Positions 13,316 through 62,615 of a stretch of 64,000 bases of DNA are shown here, in pieces (positions within the stretch are counted from its first letter, which is position 1; the number at the start of each line of letters is the position of its first letter). Position numbers and translations under genes: made by a program. The stretch is from positions 33,428,995 to 33,492,994 of the forward strand of contig CP141142.1 in NCBI GenBank assembly GCA_035235625.1. The letters run 5' to 3'. The notes below the pieces were generated by a model, which was given only the letters and a program-made list of their open reading frames with translations, was not told the DNA's origin and searched no databases. Source of the DNA: Saururus chinensis. Taxonomy: Eukaryota > Streptophyta > Magnoliopsida > Piperales > Saururaceae.

Positions 13316-13599
13316 GGGCCCATTTGGATGTGCTTTAAATGGGAAAATAAGAGGTATTTTAACCTAATTGCCTTTTATTAAATAGCCTTTTTGCCTAATT
13401 GCCTTTTAAGGGGTTTTACTAAAATAAACTTAAATCAAGTACCAATTCATATTTATATTAAAAGGCATATAAAAAATATAAGGGTAATACTCCCTCCGTC
13501 CTACATTAATAGCTCCATATCTCATTTTTGTTATTTTTATTAAGTTCTCTCTTTCACACGTCTAACATTAATCTCTTATAACGGTTAAAACACTAATCC

Positions 13600-13940
13600 T
13601 TCTGCTCGCTCGACGGAACTCTGCCCTTTCCATTCCTTGCTCTCTCTCCCTCCAGGCTCATGGCATCGACCTCCGCACCTCGTAGCGGTGACCGTGGATA
13701 TGCTAGGATCTCCACTGCGGCCTCCACCTAGAATTCCGAGTACCAGTCCCTGACCGTGGTAGCACCAAACACCCCCTGTCCTCCAAAATCCTAATCTTCA
13801 TCTTCTTCCAATCTGTTTCCTGCCCAGAAAATCTCGCTATCCCTTTCTTTGTGTTCTGCTTTCGGGAGATTCGGAGAGCACTATCAATGATTAAAACCGT
13901 GGCAGTGGGCTTGGAGAGGGAAAACCAGTCCGACATGGTA
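13600..13940. other. Second captured segment, identity unknown
   Basis: Moderately GC-rich. On the plus strand it begins like a pyrimidine-rich 5' leader (about 13615-13655) followed by an ATG at 13660 and 'MASTSAPRSGDRGYARIST' before a stop. A 77-codon minus-strand frame covers 13703-13936. I recognise neither. It looks like transcribed host sequence, but strand and origin are undecided. Confidence 0.3.
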
Positions 13941-14059
13941 CATTAACCACACACCTCTAATTGGTTTTTGCGTGAAGTGATTTTTTTCTTCTAAACATTT
14001 GGGATTTTTGGATTGTCGCAATTGAATTTCTATTCGTATATAGGTGAGGCAATTGGAAG

Positions 14060-14644
14060 AGATCCAGGCCTTGGAGAATCACTACCGTCCGAGAGACCAG
14101 GTGGATGTTTATCTGCCATATAGTAATCATATCTAATTTTTGTTCTTGTAGCACCACTCTTAGCTGCCATATACAGAATGGTCTTGCCGGAGGAATTGAT
14201 GGCATTCAGCTGTACTCCTAAGGTCACCCTTGCCCCTGGCTACATCAGCACCTCAACCACACCGTAGTGATTATTCCTCACGGCTTTGTGCAAGGCCGTG
14301 CAGTCATTTCTGTTTTTCATCTCAAGCAACTCCGACACCTGGCCATGAGCACATTCCATACGCATACGGGTAATGTGAGGATTGCCAGCCCTCATTGCCA
14401 AGTGAAGGGCAGAGTCGCCCCCCTTGTTTTTCCAAAACAGGAGGGAGGGATAGTTCATGCAGAGCTCGCCCACTATGTTGATATGGTTGAATCTCGCTAC
14501 AAGGTGGAGAGCCGTATTTCCGTTGGGTGTTCCACCGTCAAACAGGTTACTTCTCCAGTTAGCTAAGTATTGGAGGCGACACAGGTTGCCGGCTTTCACT
14601 GCCATGAATACTTCACGATCCATGATATCTCTCTCTTTCGGCAA
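14060..14644 (-). pseudogene. Ankyrin-repeat (ACD6-like) gene fragment
   Basis: The minus-strand frame starting at 14644 opens with 'MDREVFMAVKAGN' and contains successive ankyrin repeats: 'NGNTALHLVARFNHINIV', 'GGDSALHLAMRAGN' and 'NDCTALHKAVRNNHYGVV'. The frame is cut by TAG at 14240-14242, then continues in the same frame with 'LNAINSSGKTILYMAAKSG', the next repeat, before losing similarity near 14100. The order of repeats is typical of plant ACD6-like proteins, which continue into more repeats and a membrane PGG domain. Those parts are absent. The fragment lies wholly inside the TA-flanked element 13490-14823, so it is most likely captured and not a resident gene. It may be transcribed from a nearby promoter but cannot give a working membrane protein. 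Confidence 0.8.
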
Positions 14645-14825
14645 AACTCCATGTAGCGCCTCAACTTTAACACCTGATTAGAATCCGTTGTTTGTTTGAG
14701 TAATTAATTTTCACGTGAGAAGCATTAGAGATGTATGCTAGTTTAAATTCAACTAAATAGAGTAATTAATATTGAACATAGTTTTTTTTTTCTATTAGAG
14801 CTATTAAAATAGGACGGAGGGAGTA

Positions 14826-39180: not shown

Positions 39181-39888
39181 TACGGAGGAGGTAAGAGGGC
39201 TATAAACTTTTTAAGGCTATAAACTTTTTAAAGCCTTAAAGGTGCTGTAGTGCCACCTAAATGAAAGAAATATAGAACCACATGGTCCCCACTTGAAAAG
39301 AACTGATGATGTTCAATTGTCCAAGGGGGTCCACGGCCAACCTAGTCCCAACTAGCTCTGTCCCTACTGATGGCAACGCGATGCCTGCTATGAATAAATG
39401 ATTGCCTTCATCATTTTCATTTTGCTCCACGACAAACGCGGCTATGCTTTCTGTGAACAAAAGCGAGGAGTTGTACGTGATTATAGCCCATCGTCATAAA
39501 CGAACATGTATAGTACATGAGACAGTTTATACGCGTCACGGCAGCCTAGGCATTGTAGGCAGTTTAATTTTGATTTGACAGAAACATATTAATAAAAAGG
39601 TAAATGTGTAATTTAAACCCGCTTACCCCTAAGTCATATCATATATGCGTCATTGAATCTAAATCCCACTGCCCCCGAAAGGAACAAAAACTTTCCTCAA
39701 GCCCAGTGTTATGCGACAGCTTCACCCAATCAATCAACCACCCTGAAGGTTAGAGGAGAACAATGTCCAGAGACTCTGGCCCTCTTCTTATGGGAAGGTA
39801 TTATCATTTCCTCATCACAGGCAGTCAGCCCCATCCCATTTTATACACATGTAGTTTAACCAGTCTCTAAGTAGAATTTAACCATACA
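39181..39888 (+). promoter_or_regulatory. SDR promoter, copy C (joined to the reading frame)
   Basis: Homologous to 20705-21468 and 25671-26496. Unlike those it has no Tourist MITE (the empty site is around 39430, between 'TTTTGCTCCACGAC' and 'GGCTATGCT') and no LTR at its 3' end. A TATA-like TATACAC at 39842-39848 lies ~47 bp before the ATG at 39889. Confidence 0.7.
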
Positions 39889-39898
39889 ATGTCTCAGG

Positions 39899-40654
39899 TT
39901 GCAGGGGAAGGTGGCAATCATCACCGGAGCAGCAAGTGGAATCGGCGAGGCGAGTGCCCGCCTCTTTGCTGAGCACGGTGCGCACGTTGTGATGGCCGAC
40001 ATCCAAGACGAACCAGCCCTGGCCGTGGCGGCCTCCATAGGGCCCGATCGCTGCACGTACATGAGATGCGATGTCACCGATGAGGACCAGATCAAACACT
40101 TGGTCGACAGTACCATCGCCATCCACGGTCGAGTTGACATAGCCTTCTGTAACGCCGGTATAAAAAACCACGGCCAGGCAATACTCGACCTCGACTTGCA
40201 GGCCATGGACCGCCTCTTCGCGGTGAACGCCCGAGGCCCCGCAGCTCTCGTCAAGCACGCAGGCCGGGCCATGGTCGAGGGGAACATAAAGGGAAGCATC
40301 ATCTGCACGGCCAGTGCGGCCTCAGTTGTGGGCGGGTCCTCGGTGGACTACACCATGTCGAAGCACGCTGTGCTGGGTCTGATCCGGGCAGCATGCCGTG
40401 ACTTGGGCAAGCATGGGATTAGAGTCAATTGCTTGTCGCCGTATGCGGTAGCAACGCCTTTGCTGTGTGAGGCGTATGGGCGGGGGCCGGAGGAGGTGGA
40501 GAAGATGTTCTCAAGCCAGACGAGCTTGCAGGGGATTGTGTTGAAGGTAAAACACGTAGCTGATGCGGCCTTGTTCTTGGCTAGCGAGGAGTCAGCCTTC
40601 ATTAGTGGACATAATCTTGTGGTGGACGGGGGCTTTGTTAGTGTCAGATCTTAG
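39899..40654 (+). CDS. Short-chain dehydrogenase/reductase (secoisolariciresinol dehydrogenase/ABA2-type, SDR110C)
   Basis: A 251-codon single-exon frame of the classical SDR fold, an NAD(H)-dependent alcohol/ketone oxidoreductase of plant secondary metabolism. Visible motifs: cofactor loop TGAASGIG (residues 9-16), Asp34 in 'VVMADIQDE' that selects NAD, 'DVTDE' (58-62), 'CNAG' (84-87), 'VNARG' (109-113), Ser139 in 'CTASAAS', and the catalytic Tyr151-x3-Lys155 in 'YTMSKHAVLG'. Also present are 'IRVNCLSPYAVATPLL' (174-189) and the C-terminal 'FISGHNLVVDGGF'. Family members are ~260-280 residues, so it is almost full length. Odd: this frame has no ATG at its start. Residue 1 is TTG (39899), preceded in frame by TAG at 39872. 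The only nearby ATG (39889) is one base out of frame. Either a one-base frameshift has hit the start, a spliced upstream exon exists, or translation begins at Met32. The substrate cannot be told from sequence. Confidence 0.85.
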   Translation: MQGKVAIITGAASGIGEASARLFAEHGAHVVMADIQDEPALAVAASIGPDRCTYMRCDVTDEDQIKHLVDSTIAIHGRVDIAFCNAGIKNHGQAILDLDLQAMDRLFAVNARGPAALVKHAGRAMVEGNIKGSIICTASAASVVGGSSVDYTMSKHAVLGLIRAACRDLGKHGIRVNCLSPYAVATPLLCEAYGRGPEEVEKMFSSQTSLQGIVLKVKHVADAALFLASEESAFISGHNLVVDGGFVSVRS

Positions 40655-56315: not shown

Positions 56316-56419
56316 CTCCATTTGTCCTACATTAATAGCTCCATTTAGTTTTTAAAAATAAATTAAAATTAATTCATTGTAAAAAACCAAATGGACCTAT
56401 TAATTTGAGATGGAGGGAG
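56316..56419. mobile_element. Stowaway MITE, 104 bp
   Basis: Left end CTCCATTTGTCCTACATTAA and inverse right end CTCCCTCCATCTCAAATTAA, both continuing into ATAG(C/G)TCC, with TA on each side (56314-56315, 56420-56421). Typical size and AT-rich interior. The ends are related to those of 13490-14823 and 57322-60335. Confidence 0.8.
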
Positions 56420-56740: not shown

Positions 56741-57401
56741 ATTTTTTTTAATTTCCAATGGTTCACTTTAGCTAGATTTGATTTGAGCTAAACTTGCACA
56801 TAGTTTGATTTACAACAGACCCAAATTCGAGCTAAGTTATATAGTACCACTATATACTGAGTTCAAGATCTAGCATGAGTTAAGTTTGTAGTTTCCTTCT
56901 TGAGCCAAGTTCGAGCTAGATGATTAGTAGCTCAATCAAATTTGAGTTGAGCTTGAGCTAATATTCAAAACTATGAGTTTGAGCCAAGCCAACCCAAAAC
57001 TCGACTCAACTCGACTCCTTAGAACCCTTAAGAACCAGTCCAAATAACATCAATGCAGATCCTGGGCTTAATTGCTTTAGTGATACAACAAAATAATGAT
57101 CCATTTGATCGAACCAAGCACACTACCCGCACTATGCAACAACATCGCCCAATTGCGATATAAAGTACAATTCTACTCAAAAGGAATCAATCAATTACAA
57201 AGATGGTCATAACAACATTCAAAATCCTTGACATAAATCTCTTCTAACTCAACAATTATTTATACCTCAAGTTGATGACAAAACAGGATTTATTTCATGA
57301 ACACAACCCACTAAACTGATACTCTCTCTGTCCTATATTAATAGCTCCAATATATAAAAAAAGTTCTATATTAATTGCTCCATTTTGCTTAATTTAAGCA
57401 T

Positions 57402-57720
57402 TTAGATCTCTCTTTGATACTTCTCACAAAAAATAAGCAAACCACATAATTCCATGTCCGCGTGCAATGCCAACATTGCGCACACCGTTCTCCTACTACC
57501 CGGCCATGATGACCCCGACCACCTCCTCCCCCACCTTGCGAACTTCTTGTCATCCTCCTCCTCGAAGCCCTTCGAGAGCATGTCGTCCTTCGGTGTCGTC
57601 CCCCTCCTCTCCATGCCCCCGCCTCCGGCCCTGTACGAGGCAGGGGCACAGGGCCAGCTCTTGTACGAGGATACTGACTATCCTCATTGCCGGCTCTCAC
57701 CACTCCTCCTCTCCCAGCCG
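57402..57720. other. GC-rich captured segment, identity unknown
   Basis: Both strands are open for more than 70 codons. The plus frame from 57454 reads 'LPGHDDPDHLLPHLANFLS' and 'KPFESMSSFGVVPLLSMPP'. The minus frame from 57614 reads 'TPKDDMLSKGFEEEDDKKF'. I recognise neither. The sharp rise in GC against its flanks suggests captured coding DNA. Confidence 0.35.
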
Positions 57721-58736
57721 GTCCACTGTTGGAACAAGTTTTCGGGTGCAAAGCCGGTGAGCATGTTGCCAGATAGGTCCAGCTCCACAACTTTGTCCAA
57801 GCTGGAGAAGCTCTTGGGAAGAACGCTAGTGAAGGAGTTTGATCCAGCATCGAGGACGGTGAGGTTGCCCAGCAGCCTAATCTCCTAAGGGAGGCATCTG
57901 AGGAGCTCCTTGTTCAAGAAGATGATTTCGTTCAGTGAGCCAGACATCTTGCCGATACTGCTGGGAATGCAGCTAGTGAACTTGTTGTTGACAAGGACGA
58001 TGACTGATACAGGAGAGTTGCCGAGGTTCTCAGGGATGGTGGACTCGAACCGGTTGTCGTTCAAGAACAGAGTGTCGAGCTCCTTGTCGAATAGCTCGGG
58101 CGGGAGTTGGCCCTCGAAGTCATTGAACCGAAGGTTGAGGTACTAGAGGGCAGGGAGGCCTAGGATGACTTCTGGGAATGGGCAGAGGAAGCGGTTGTTG
58201 CTGAGGTCCAACTCGTGGAGGAGGACCATTCAAGAGAAGCTCTTGGGGATGATGCTGCAGAAGCGATTGGAGTTGATGTGGAAGAGGCCCTGGTTGGTCA
58301 TGAAACCCAGCTCCACGGGAAGGTACCTGGCAATGTCACCATGGTTGAGGTCGACCCTGGCAACAGTGTTTACAAAGGAGTCATCGAGTGCCTCGGTGCA
58401 GAAGACCCCATTGTGGGAGCAGACGTCTGGGCCAACCGAGTTGCCGGTGAAGTTAAAGGGTTAAGAGAAGATGGCCTTCTTCCATGCCTGGAGGGCAATG
58501 TAGGCCCTGTTAAGCTTGGAATTGGTGAATGTGAAGAGCAGATTGATGTTGAACTCAAAGTCATTCGGGAGATTGCCGCCCTCATGGAGGGTTAGGAACT
58601 GGTGGCAGGCGATGAAGGAGGTCTCGACATCGGTGAGATGCTGAGTAACGGTGAAGAGGGTGGCAATGGCAAGGAAGAGGAGAAGGCTAGAGAAAAGCTC
58701 AAAGACACCGCCTCTGCCTTCTCTAACCTGGGTCAT
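57684..58736 (-). pseudogene. LRX: Leucine-rich-repeat extensin (LRX) gene fragment
   Basis: One minus-strand frame runs 350 codons from ATG 58736. A hydrophobic signal segment ('LFSSLLLFLAIATLF') is followed by the LRX N-terminal domain ('FIACHQFLTLHEGGNLPNDF', 'LNRAYIALQAWKKAIFS'), then 'GNSVGPDVCSHNGVFC' and at least six leucine-rich repeats ('VARVDLNHGDIARYLPVELG', 'LHELDLSNNRFLCPFPEVIL', 'LDTLFLNDNRFESTIPENLG', 'VVELDLSGNMLTG'). Four in-frame stops break it: TAA 58461-58463, TGA 58230-58232, TAG 58143-58145, TAG 57885-57887. There is no frameshift. The Cys-rich hinge and extensin Ser-Pro repeats are missing. LRX proteins are cell-wall sensors that bind RALF peptides and link to receptor kinases. 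This fragment cannot do so. It lies within a TA-flanked element and ends next to a LEA fragment, so it is probably captured. Confidence 0.88.
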
Positions 58737-59216
58737 GGTGTCTCCCGTCCCAAATCCCGCCAGGACTCGTTGGGTCTCCCTGATGCTCCCTCAGCTACCA
58801 CAACCAAGGAGATGATTTGCGACACATATGGAAAGTGCAAGGAGAAGATCTCCTCCATCTTTGGCAAGGCCAAGGACAAGGTGACGGAGTTTGGAGAGGA
58901 GGCAGCTCGGAAGGCTAAAAATGTAGGTGAGGAGTTGGAGGGGAAGGTATAGCAGAAGGTGAAAACGGCACGCGAGGAGGCTGCAAGGGTAGTGAAGAAG
59001 GCCGTTGATATGGTGAGACAGTCGGCTGAGAAGGTAAAGTCAGTTGGGGAGAAGGTGGCGGAGGGCATTGAGGGAGGGACGAAGATGGCCATCAACAAGG
59101 CGAAGCATGTGGGGGAGTCTACTGTGGAGAAGGCAAAGTCTATTAGAGGGAAGGTGTGTTGGACCATGGTATGGGCTCGGGCCCGGTTTGGTCCAAAAGT
59201 GTCGCGGTCCGAGTGA
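58602..59216 (+). pseudogene. Late embryogenesis abundant (LEA group 3/LEA_4-like) gene fragment
   Basis: A plus-strand frame with the 11-mer amphipathic pattern of LEA_4 proteins: 'KCKEKISSIFGKAKDKVTEF', 'EEAARKAKNVGEELEGK', then 'REEAARVVKKAVDMVRQSAE' and 'INKAKHVGESTVEKAKSI'. TAG at 58950-58952 interrupts the frame, probably a CAG to TAG change. The frame then continues unchanged. The first ~45 codons lie antisense to the LRX signal-peptide region, so they are unlikely to be genuine LEA sequence. Similarity begins near 58690. Past 59150 the frame runs into unrelated text. LEA proteins protect membranes and enzymes during drying. This copy would give only a short peptide unless the stop is read through. 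Confidence 0.72.
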
Positions 59217-60090
59217 GCAGGTATGGGCTACGGGGTCAGAGGGTGATGAGAGCAACCACGCCGACCCCACATGTACCTTCGTTACGCATAATTAGAGTGG
59301 GACCCACACATGTCACACACATACACTAGACATACATCTAGGTGTGCATTTACACATTGTGTGATGAGGGTGGGACCCGCGTGATTAGTGAGGGGTCGAC
59401 CCTATCGCTGGCTTGGCCATGTGCAGGGGGTCCAAGCCTCCACGGGCTCTGTGTGACAGAGCCCGCTCTCGTTGTGATTGAGTCTCTATGAAAAACCAGT
59501 TGGAATTATGCAAAACAAGCCCATATAATCTCAGCCCAAATCTAAGACCAAATCAGGCCCTCCAAATATGGAAAGTAAGGAGGTTATAAATAGAGAAAGA
59601 GAGGAGCGGCTGACCTAGCTTTGGCTGGCCGGCCCTCCCTCTTCTCCTCTCCCAAAACCAGTCCGCCCCCTTCCCTCATGGTTTTGGGTGCGGCCTGCAC
59701 CTTTGGTGGCTGGCCGCCCTCCTTCCTCCCCTCTCTTGGTCTTTATTGGCGGGCTATTCAAGGGAGTGCTTCTTCATCTCTGCTGGGACATGGAGGATTG
59801 AAGATAGGCTGAAGTTAAGAGGCGTTTTGCTGATTATCCTTCAATCCAAGAATCGGTTTAAGAGGAATCATCACAAAAATGTATTATCTTAATCCCTTCC
59901 TTTTGATCTTGCTATTGATGCGAAAAGGCTGATTTGAAGGGCGTGCTAGGGATGGATTAAGCCCAAGTCAATGTGTATCTTTCCAATATTTTATATTCAT
60001 ATACTTGATTTGATCATATACATATTGATATTGCTAATTGTTATTAGTTTATTGCATGTATTGTATAGATCTCTTATAAAGTTTTGAATT
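59150..60090 (+). other. Non-coding insert inside the element, possibly an LTR or promoter
   Basis: Starts near TGTGTTGGACCATGG. Contains a TATA-like 'GGTTATAAATAGAG' (about 59583-59596) followed by a C/T-rich leader (59625-59740). This could be an LTR or a captured promoter and 5' leader. No matching partner was found. The ~190 bp from 59600 give only spurious open frames. Confidence 0.3.
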
Positions 60091-60092
60091 TT

Positions 60093-60254
60093 ATGTGCGC
60101 CACCTCCTCCACCAAGTCTTCCGCTGCTGGCCGACCACCCTACAAGGTGGTGGACGCCGGAGAGTCTTACGACGGTGGCTGGGCTGGCGTTCTAGGCCAC
60201 GTATGGGACGTGCCACAAGCCCCACGGGATGGGGTAAGATTTTATTATTATTAG
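60093..60254 (+). other. Exon-like fragment with a splice-donor consensus
   Basis: ATG at 60093 opens 53 codons ('GRPPYKVVDAGESYDGGWAG', 'HVWDVPQAPRDG'). After GATGGG the text reads GTAAGATTTTATTATTA, a good plant 5' splice site (boundary at 60236/60237). GC content drops sharply there. It may be a captured exon, but I do not recognise the protein. Confidence 0.3.
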
Positions 60255-60367
60255 ACTCTTAAGAGAGGTGTGATTTCTAACTTGATAAAAATGACAAAAA
60301 AATATAAATAAAGCTATTAATAGGGACAGAGGGAGTATTTCATTAGATAAAGTCAAAATATTTATCT

Positions 60368-60388
60368 TAACTCAACAATTATTTATAC
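60368..60388 (+). repeat. 21-bp direct repeat of 57245-57265
   Basis: Identical 21 bases (TAACTCAACAATT then ATTTATAC) lie 55 bp before the left end and 32 bp after the right end of the 3.0-kb element. Confidence 0.7.
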
Positions 60389-61142
60389 TAAAGAAAATTC
60401 TTTCTTCAAATGTTTTTGAAAGTTTAAGCTCTGTCAGTGGTGGGTTCTCTCGGAAAACCGGTTCTGATTTGGGCGTGGCTAAACCAAGCCACGGAGAGCG
60501 CGTTGGCCACAAATCTACAAGCCATGGAAGCATAGGGGAGGTTCAGGAGGGTTGTGTGGCCGGGAGGCATGTCCACAGGCAATGGAGAGAGGGTTGTCGG
60601 GGAGTGGAAAGATAAGAATCTTGTGGTTGTGGAGGATGGTGATAAAGAAGGTATCATTGTCCCAGGGCCATCTCTATTTCAAGGCTGACCCACCTCTCTG
60701 CAGTAACTTCACCGGTTGCAGAGTTACTGCATTCCTCCGAAGATGGGCCCAGCAAGGTCTCCTTCTCATCTAGGTTCTTTTGGACCCAAGGATGCTCAGT
60801 GCATAACCTGATCAATTGCTGCAGTTTCATTGCAACATCTCTCATTGTTGGCCTATCCTCACCTTTGACTCTCACGCACCTCTCGGCAAGAAGACCAACT
60901 GCCATCACTTGATCATCCAATCCTTCAATCCGAACTCGTTCTTCTAATGCTTCTGAGAGCCGATTCTCCCTCATCTCAGAAATGAAATGCCTCACTAACG
61001 ATTTTCTCTGAGGTCCTTCATTTGAGATGGGTATCTGCCCTGTTAACAGTTCCACAAGTACCACCCCAAAGCTGTACACATCACTCTTTTTTGTCAGTTG
61101 ACATGTTTGCAAGTACTCGGGATCCAAGTACCCCGGAGTCCC

Positions 61143-61192
61143 TTTCACAATAGTTTCAATTTGTCCCTTTCACAATAGTTTCAATTTGTCCC
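61143..61192 (-). repeat. 25-bp perfect tandem duplication in the kinase region
   Basis: TTTCACAATAGTTTCAATTT plus GTCCC, twice in a row. Because 25 is not a multiple of three it shifts the reading frame exactly at the activation segment, before 'GTPGYLDPEY'. Confidence 0.97.
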
Positions 61193-61447
61193 TGTTGATC
61201 TGATGGAACTAGCTTTGACGTTCCAAAATCCGACATTTTGGCATTCAGGTTAGAATCTAAGATGTTTGCAGATTTCACATCTCCATGGATAATTGGCACC
61301 GCGACGTCTGAATGCAAGAAGGCGAGTGCTCCTGCAGTTTCTGATGCAATCTTTAGATGATTTCGAAATGAAATGGAGCCAACAAAGTCCCTCTGATGAA
61401 CTCGTACACTAAAATTGGACTTTTCGATTCCAAACAACATCCCAAAA

Positions 61448-61567
61448 GTCAGTTGGAAGAACTGGAAAGAGCAAATGAAATGAAAAGAGTTAATCGAGTT
61501 AATACCTGCACATGATTCTAAAGAGTCAGTTGGAAGAACTGGAAAGAGCAAATGAAATGAAAAGAGT
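61448..61567 (-). repeat. 43-bp repeat, 77-bp period
   Basis: 'GTCAGTTGGAAGAACTGGAA' and the next 23 bases occur at 61448-61490 and 61525-61567. On the minus strand the repeat carries a pyrimidine tract ending 'CTCTTTCCAG', which looks like an intron acceptor, so the splice-site region is duplicated. Confidence 0.9.
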
Positions 61568-62615
61568 GCCTGCAATATAAAAGAAAGAAACAAGTAAAAA
61601 AATTATGTTCTGGACCATGTTAAACCTGTTTTCTTAAATGGGTGCTACGTATTTAATATTAGGTAGGGACCATGTGGCCCGATAAACTCACCACTGCGTC
61701 CCTCGTAAGGGTTTCCAGCAAATCCATCTTTGCAGGAGCAGAGATACCCAGGCTCGATCTTGGCGTCGATGCACTTGGTATTCTATCCACGGCACGCGTA
61801 GTCATCTGAGTTCTGAACCGAGTCGCAGGTTTTGTTGTTGATCGCCCAATCCAGCACAACTGGGACCGTCCAATTTGAGTCTATGTAGAAGCTGTAGTTG
61901 GAGAGCATGGACGTCTTGAAGAGAACAAATCGTCCGAGTACCTGCTAAGGTAGAGGTCGAAGTTCTTGACGCCCTTGGGGATGGACACTTGGCAGCAGCC
62001 AACCCTGTCGCAGACCCCATCGTTCAGTTGGCTGGAGACGTTACTGCAGACAGATGGTACCACAGGAGAAATTATAAGGTACGGATAAGATACTAACGTA
62101 GCAGTGCCTATCACCAATTAGGATTTAAGATACTATCATATTTTCTATTAAGTACGCTATTTTTAGGGAGTCAGGCATTGATCGTCTCGTGGCCCCAATG
62201 ACCTCTGAGGAAGGATGAGTAGTCACAGCCGATCATTATGAACCGGTTGCGCTGAGAAAAGGTGAAGGGCCCATTAGTAGCGAGTTTCAGATAGCCCATA
62301 CGAGTGAGCGCTTTTGTTCACTGAGATTGAGCTGTTGTAGCAGTCGATCCTTATTATGCTACCGATGGTCATCTCTGCTAGGAGGACTAAGATATTAGTG
62401 ACCTCCAGGTGGCGCTAGAAGGGTCTGGGTGGCTGGAAGCTGTCATTGCAAGTGAGGTTGAAAGCTGGGCCTCTGAAACAGCCATCATCGCCACCATCGC
62501 TGTTGCTGATGCCGAAGGGACCGGGTAAGGTATGACCACATTTCTGCACTGCCTTTGGCACCCAGCTTTGGCCACAGTTGTGCATAAGCAGAAGAGCCGA
62601 GCCATGCCACCACAA

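Follow-up and report, generated by a model that had tools for sequence, protein, structure and literature searches.

Stowaway elements are miniature inverted-repeat transposable elements (MITEs) that normally measure 100-400 bp, are AT-rich and have ends of the CTCCCTCYGTCC type. Mutator-type elements carry inverted repeats of about 200 bp and 9-bp duplications, and Pack-MULEs, which capture and join host gene fragments, were reportedly described by Jiang et al. in 2004. Pack-Mariners of rice and maize have Stowaway-type ends, a TA duplication, captured coding DNA and mostly low copy number, and in 19% of those of rice the captured DNA stems from two or more loci (Gisby and Catoni, 2022; PMC8903248). 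Here, we describe an element of 3014 bp at positions 57322-60335 of a 64,000-nt stretch of Saururus chinensis DNA (the window), which was compared with the same genome (516 Mb, 11 contigs). This element is very probably a non-autonomous Tc1/mariner (Stowaway-type) Pack-Mariner, with two unequal arms as ends, an exchangeable interior and a cargo, the LRX-LEA block, that may well derive from a Pack-MULE. Its resemblance to the rice and maize elements extends to all four features listed above; the difference lies in the host plant, and possibly also in two unequal arms kept across unrelated cargo and in a cargo block also present in Pack-MULEs. The original prediction, made from the letters of the window, regarded the element as the best candidate for an undescribed system in it. 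That view has to be given up, Pack-Mariners having been described already in 2022 (PMC8903248); well supported is a clear family of this kind in another plant, with a cargo block in common with Pack-MULEs.

The element is flanked by TA on each side. Its left end, at 57322, reads TA followed by CTCTCTCTGTCCTATATTAATAGCTCCA, and its right end, at 60335, reads TA followed by CTCCCTCTGTCCC-TATTAATAGCTTTA on the opposite strand; these CTCCCTCYGTCC-type terminal inverted repeats pair with a 1-base indel. A scan of the window with a 30-mer model of the ends (at most 8 mismatches, TA required, ungapped) gave five matches vs. an average of 0.0 in 10 mononucleotide shuffles: the left end of the element, both ends of a second element, E2, and both ends of a 104-bp MITE. 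The right end at 60335 escaped the ungapped model because of its indel, and other indel-bearing ends could be missed likewise; within that limit, no further end was found inside the element. Paired ends and scan matches thus bear out the prediction of a non-autonomous mariner/Stowaway-type element of this length, with inverted ends and TA. Its layout is as follows:

57320-57321, no strand: TA target-site duplication, left (from sequence)
57322-57431, + strand: A arm, terminal inverted repeat and subterminal region (from arm comparison and genome matches)
57363-57382: second ATTAATTGCTCC-type motif, within the A arm
57432-57720, no strand: cargo of unassigned origin, parts of which are also in L054 (on C4) and L055 (on C3), both with the same A arm
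57730-58682, - strand: fragment of an LRX (leucine-rich repeat extensin) gene, one frame, four stops
58683-59156 (about), + strand: LEA-like frame with a single stop, for which no source gene was found
59152-59156, no strand: AGGTG, 5-bp duplication flanking the long terminal repeat (LTR), left copy
59157-60144, + strand: solo LTR, TG to CA, 988 bp, many genome copies
60145-60149, no strand: AGGTG, 5-bp duplication flanking the LTR, right copy
60150-60245, + strand: remaining cargo
60246-60335, - strand: B arm, terminal inverted repeat and subterminal region
60336-60337, no strand: TA target-site duplication, right
56316-56419, no strand: the 104-bp MITE, whose ends are of this type too; it lies 0.9 kb upstream of 57322-60335

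E2 (13490-14823) is flanked by TA and has a 29-bp inverted repeat (93%). It is made up of:

13490-13571, + strand: B arm
13572-14707, no strand: cargo, unmatched to that of 57322-60335
14243-14677 (frame), - strand: antisense ankyrin fragment (Pfam PF12796, 5e-24)
14708-14823, - strand: A arm

In both elements the arms are unequal, A measuring about 110-116 bp and B about 82-90 bp, and they correspond in inverted order, a similarity that extends past the inverted repeat (75% over 112 bp for the A arms, 77.6% over 58 bp for the B arms). With the first 28 bases excluded, the A-A similarity was attained by none of 1000 dinucleotide shuffles and the B-B similarity by one of 1000. The B-B match is nevertheless weak when taken alone, because cross pairs of unlike arms also outscore most shuffles, and the A arm bears the weight. 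When E2 was searched against the genome (best 40 of 747 candidates scored), at least 47 matches were obtained: E2 itself, three full-length copies, partial or split copies, matches to the ankyrin part and 27 to the A arm only. The full-length copies (1-1334, 91-93% identity) all have TA on both sides (3/3) and different flanks, so that one cargo stands whole at four TA sites. Four of the 27 A-arm matches, all fetched (L050-L053), are accompanied by a B arm at a distance of about 1 kb; each is flanked by TA on both sides, and their arms are those of E2 and 57322-60335. Among the interiors of these six elements, compared in the same orientation, no match was found at E<=1e-3; the sole match, of 36 bases, links the interior of E2 to the B arm of L052. 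From L050-L053, nine frames were tested: one is Skp1 (PF01466, 8.6e-17), two form one expansin domain (PF01357, 2.3e-11 and 1.8e-5), and six gave no match. Conserved ends with a variable interior are therefore seen in six elements, and host coding DNA lies between such ends as LRX in 57322-60335, ankyrin in E2, and Skp1 and expansin in their relatives. This genome contains a constant-arm, variable-cargo Pack-Mariner family. E2 and 57322-60335 share with Stowaway MITEs the end sequence type, the TA sites and the lack of detected transposase coding capacity, and differ from them in size, 1.3 kb for E2 and 3.0 kb, with GC-rich cargo, for 57322-60335.

At C6:2280017-2292170, 10.8 kb separates E2 positions 1-147 from positions 150-1334, both on one strand, and this copy seems to have been split by a large insertion. 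Within E2, 13650-14110 (+ strand) resembles two short exons with a GT-AG intron, and may represent the beginning of an MMS21 SUMO ligase of the plant type; Pfam gave no match for either piece. Finally, three asymmetric MITEs of about 200 bp (L024:3452-3649, L022:2651-2849 and L039:9190-9388) belong to a sister subfamily with the A arm in common, and are candidates for a small, non-Pack form. To say that MITEs of about 200 bp align over their whole length with arm A plus arm B is too strong: in a model of three such MITEs, the A arm alone matches clearly, and the B end scarcely does past the inverted repeat.

The cargo of 57322-60335 is composite. Its LRX fragment gave 573 protein matches at E<=0.001, to LRX and PEX proteins of many plants, with 64% identity for the top-ranked one. 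At the DNA level, it is 87% identical over 953 bp to an LRX gene at C2:52589225-52590177 (L010), whose frame is open over the stretch read and continues there into the proline-rich extensin region, and which, judged by its sequence, is a parental-type gene for the fragment. The adjoining LEA-like frame, which runs in the opposite direction, matched no protein at E<=0.001 among 258 candidates, and its Pfam matches were all below the cut-offs; the LEA name is therefore not confirmed. Of the two host gene fragments predicted in opposite orientations, the LRX one thus stands, together with the expected parental gene elsewhere, and the LEA one does not. A natural LRX-LEA neighbourhood was considered and rejected: the 6 kb fetched around the L010 gene matches element positions 409-1361 only and contains no LEA-like part.

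Element positions 1836-2823, the solo LTR, recur many times in the genome. All five copies examined match over precisely bases 1-988, beginning with TG and ending with CA, and three of the five have a perfect 5-bp duplication. Hence, the solo LTR at 59157-60144 was inserted after the element had formed, and the element measured about 2.0 kb before that event. The whole 3.0 kb, of which 1.0 kb is LTR, was accordingly not captured DNA as first supposed. The same holds for one of the two GC-rich segments of the prediction, which is this LTR; the other, 57432-57720, is cargo that recurs in part in L054 and L055. The gene pieces are interrupted by stops and probably travel as passengers.

The LRX and LEA pieces were also traced in the genome (best 40 of 2424 candidates scored; the resulting list is incomplete, L055 being absent from it). 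At least ten places with LRX or LEA pieces were obtained and all were fetched: the LRX gene L010 and nine others (L009 and L011-L018). Each of these nine has at least one copy of a MULE-type repeat of about 200 bp starting GGGAAAATTATTTAAATAATAATT, the model of which was built from L014, L016 and L018, the six other loci lying outside it. The repeat was found neither at L010 nor in the window, and in one of 15 arbitrary 10-kb stretches. Long inverted repeats combined with a 9-bp duplication are absent from the window and present at L012 and L016, which are complete, with perfect duplications, and nearly so at L018 (8 of 9). Given these Mutator-type features, the nine loci are Pack-MULEs or remnants of such elements. 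L009 matches 57322-60335 without a break across the LRX-LEA join, and in L011 both parts are present with another short filler. Because the same block sits between MULE repeats, the mariner element probably took it over ready-made, which replaces the earlier idea of capture straight from host genes. The likeness to Pack-MULEs concerns the capture and joining of host gene fragments, and the block itself; the difference lies in the ends, with mariner-type ends and TA in 57322-60335 vs. repeats of about 200 bp and 9-bp duplications in MULEs.

Two relatives of 57322-60335 itself were found. In a search with its left part (57322-57725; best 40 of 558 candidates scored), 36 of at least 43 matches lie inside the A arm, and 33 of these end at query positions 105-122; the rest comprise one match reaching position 192, the element itself, and five running into or within the left cargo. 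L054 (on C4, about 1.1 kb) has both arms, the left cargo and the right cargo edge. L055 (C3:30765-30767 kb) has the A arm, the left cargo and the LEA-like part, and a 1.16-kb insert separates its A arm from its cargo. Of the copies at other TA sites that had been expected, related elements (the E2 copies and L050-L053) were found and whole copies of 57322-60335 were not; constant boundaries recur in the three E2 copies, while these two relatives differ in cargo. Transposition as a unit is accordingly seen for E2, with its three further full-length copies.

Several observations weigh against the reading of 57322-60335 as a fixed-arm Pack-Mariner with Pack-MULE-derived cargo. No intact twin of it was found, L054 and L055 being partial only. 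L054 lacks LRX-LEA; its left flank reads CT where TA would be expected, and its right end is damaged. L055 is devoid of LRX, its match beginning about 10 bases before the LRX-LEA join; no B arm is recognisable within 0.77 kb, and no MULE repeat is found in 3.5 kb, though the LEA-like part is present. As to the arms, the cross pairs also score high, the A arm of 57322-60335 being equalled by 2/1000 shuffles against the B arm of E2 and by 8/1000 against its own B arm. No transposase was found in seven frames of the element compared with Pfam, the other frames being just listed and the genome not searched for one with matching ends. On the MULE side, L014 and L017 have inverted repeat pairs with no clean 9-bp duplication, L009 has such a pair with an AT-rich, unclear duplication, a single repeat is seen within reach at L011 and at L015, and L013 has two in the same direction. 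Finally, the substitution tree of the LRX piece is nearly a star and places 57322-60335 weakly with the LRX gene (83/82), outside the MULE copies, and per-copy counts of LRX sites do not favour the MULE copies either, though those sites at which at least 80% of the MULE copies agree do, by 24 against 9.

As would be expected of a mariner MITE, the element would depend on a mariner-like transposase acting in trans, which would cut at the ends and insert it at TA. The DNA between the arms would be replaced or filled in, with template switching in the course of gap repair as the most likely mechanism; the LRX-LEA cargo would have come from a Pack-MULE in which both pieces already adjoined, and a retrotransposon would later have landed in this cargo and been reduced to a solo LTR. 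Instead of such filling, two nearby MITEs could have been mobilised together with the intervening DNA. Published work on Pack-TYPE elements prefers such fusion of neighbours (a model of Catoni 2019, reported in PMC8903248) and gives rice Pack-Mariner cluster 217 as one case. In the present genome, MITEs of such kind are frequent, and the A arm is common to whole MITEs of about 200 bp such as L024:3452-3649. On the other hand, homology to other elements ends near the same arm positions whatever the cargo, and neither 57322-60335 nor E2 retains remnants of inner ends, though the model permits their deletion, so that this absence neither proves nor excludes fusion. We consider fusion a tangible possibility, with somewhat less than even chances.

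The order of events between the two superfamilies could also be reversed, the LRX-LEA chimera having been assembled in the mariner family and moved later into MULEs. Two of the above points would favour this, namely the LEA-like part of L055, an A-arm element with no MULE repeat, and the LRX tree, nearly a star, which does not nest 57322-60335 within the MULE copies; hence, the reverse order is possible. Against it, MULE copies L009 and L012-L014 have a common LEA-side sequence that is absent from 57322-60335. Moreover, the last cargo bases of the element (60213-60245) show 97% identity to a sequence that begins about 44 bp within a MULE inverted repeat of L009, and the filler that adjoins the left edge of LRX, itself not LRX, is like the MULE copies and unlike the LRX gene. 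Assembly in the mariner family looks unlikely to us, and the simplest order suggested by these comparisons has the chimera arise first in a Pack-MULE and enter the mariner element afterwards. We lean slightly towards a fuller version, a relay capture in which the chimera was built and amplified by Pack-MULEs and then passed ready-made to the fixed-arm mariner cassette, several superfamilies exchanging one coding block.

It is very improbable that two independent Stowaway MITEs flank degenerate gene fragments by chance, with no composite mobile unit. Stowaway-like ends are common, end-like matches (loose setting) occurring in 7 of 15 arbitrary 10-kb stretches, and MITEs of 100-200 bp do exist in the genome (56316-56419; L024, L028, L038). 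However, the ungapped model detects no second end inside 57322-60335, the same A and B arms enclose unrelated cargo in E2 and four other elements, E2 recurs whole at its three other TA sites, and the left cargo accompanies the A arm in L054 and L055 too. The expectation that the ends are not those of two separate MITEs is upheld by these arms. That the element is a plain Pack-MULE or a copied Helitron with ends that just look like those of Stowaway can practically be dismissed: most of the interior does recur in copies with MULE repeats, but neither the element nor the window contains a MULE inverted repeat, the duplication measures 2 bp (TA) instead of 9 bp, and the arms are constant across unrelated cargo.

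Around the element, an exact 21-bp direct repeat, TAACTCAACAATTATTTATAC, is found at 57245-57265 and 60368-60388, that is, 56 bp beyond the left end and 32 bp beyond the right end; no further copy occurs in the window with up to 4 mismatches allowed. It is not a target-site duplication of the mariner element and is perhaps a trace of local repair. Next to the element, on the - strand, 60654-61169 is a piece of a kinase domain (PF00069), with a further kinase-like frame within 60654-61602 and a short duplicated stretch around 61146-61196. The region 60654-61602, which resembles a wall-associated kinase, is probably a pseudogene adjoining the element. Elsewhere in the window, a dehydrogenase frame at 39875-40651 has no match of more than 67% identity among the 120 or more listed, Aristolochia and Magnolia standing at 67%, which would suit a magnoliid.

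Gene shuffling by plant transposons has been studied mostly via Pack-MULEs, CACTA elements, and Helitrons. The family described here is of the mariner type and has cleanly readable parts: two fixed arms, TA sites, at least six interiors, and one cargo at four TA sites. It thereby makes the mode of DNA uptake, gap repair vs. fusion of neighbours, testable at the borders between arms and cargo. Finally, one gene chimera common to two transposon superfamilies bears on how gene fragments are traced and annotated.

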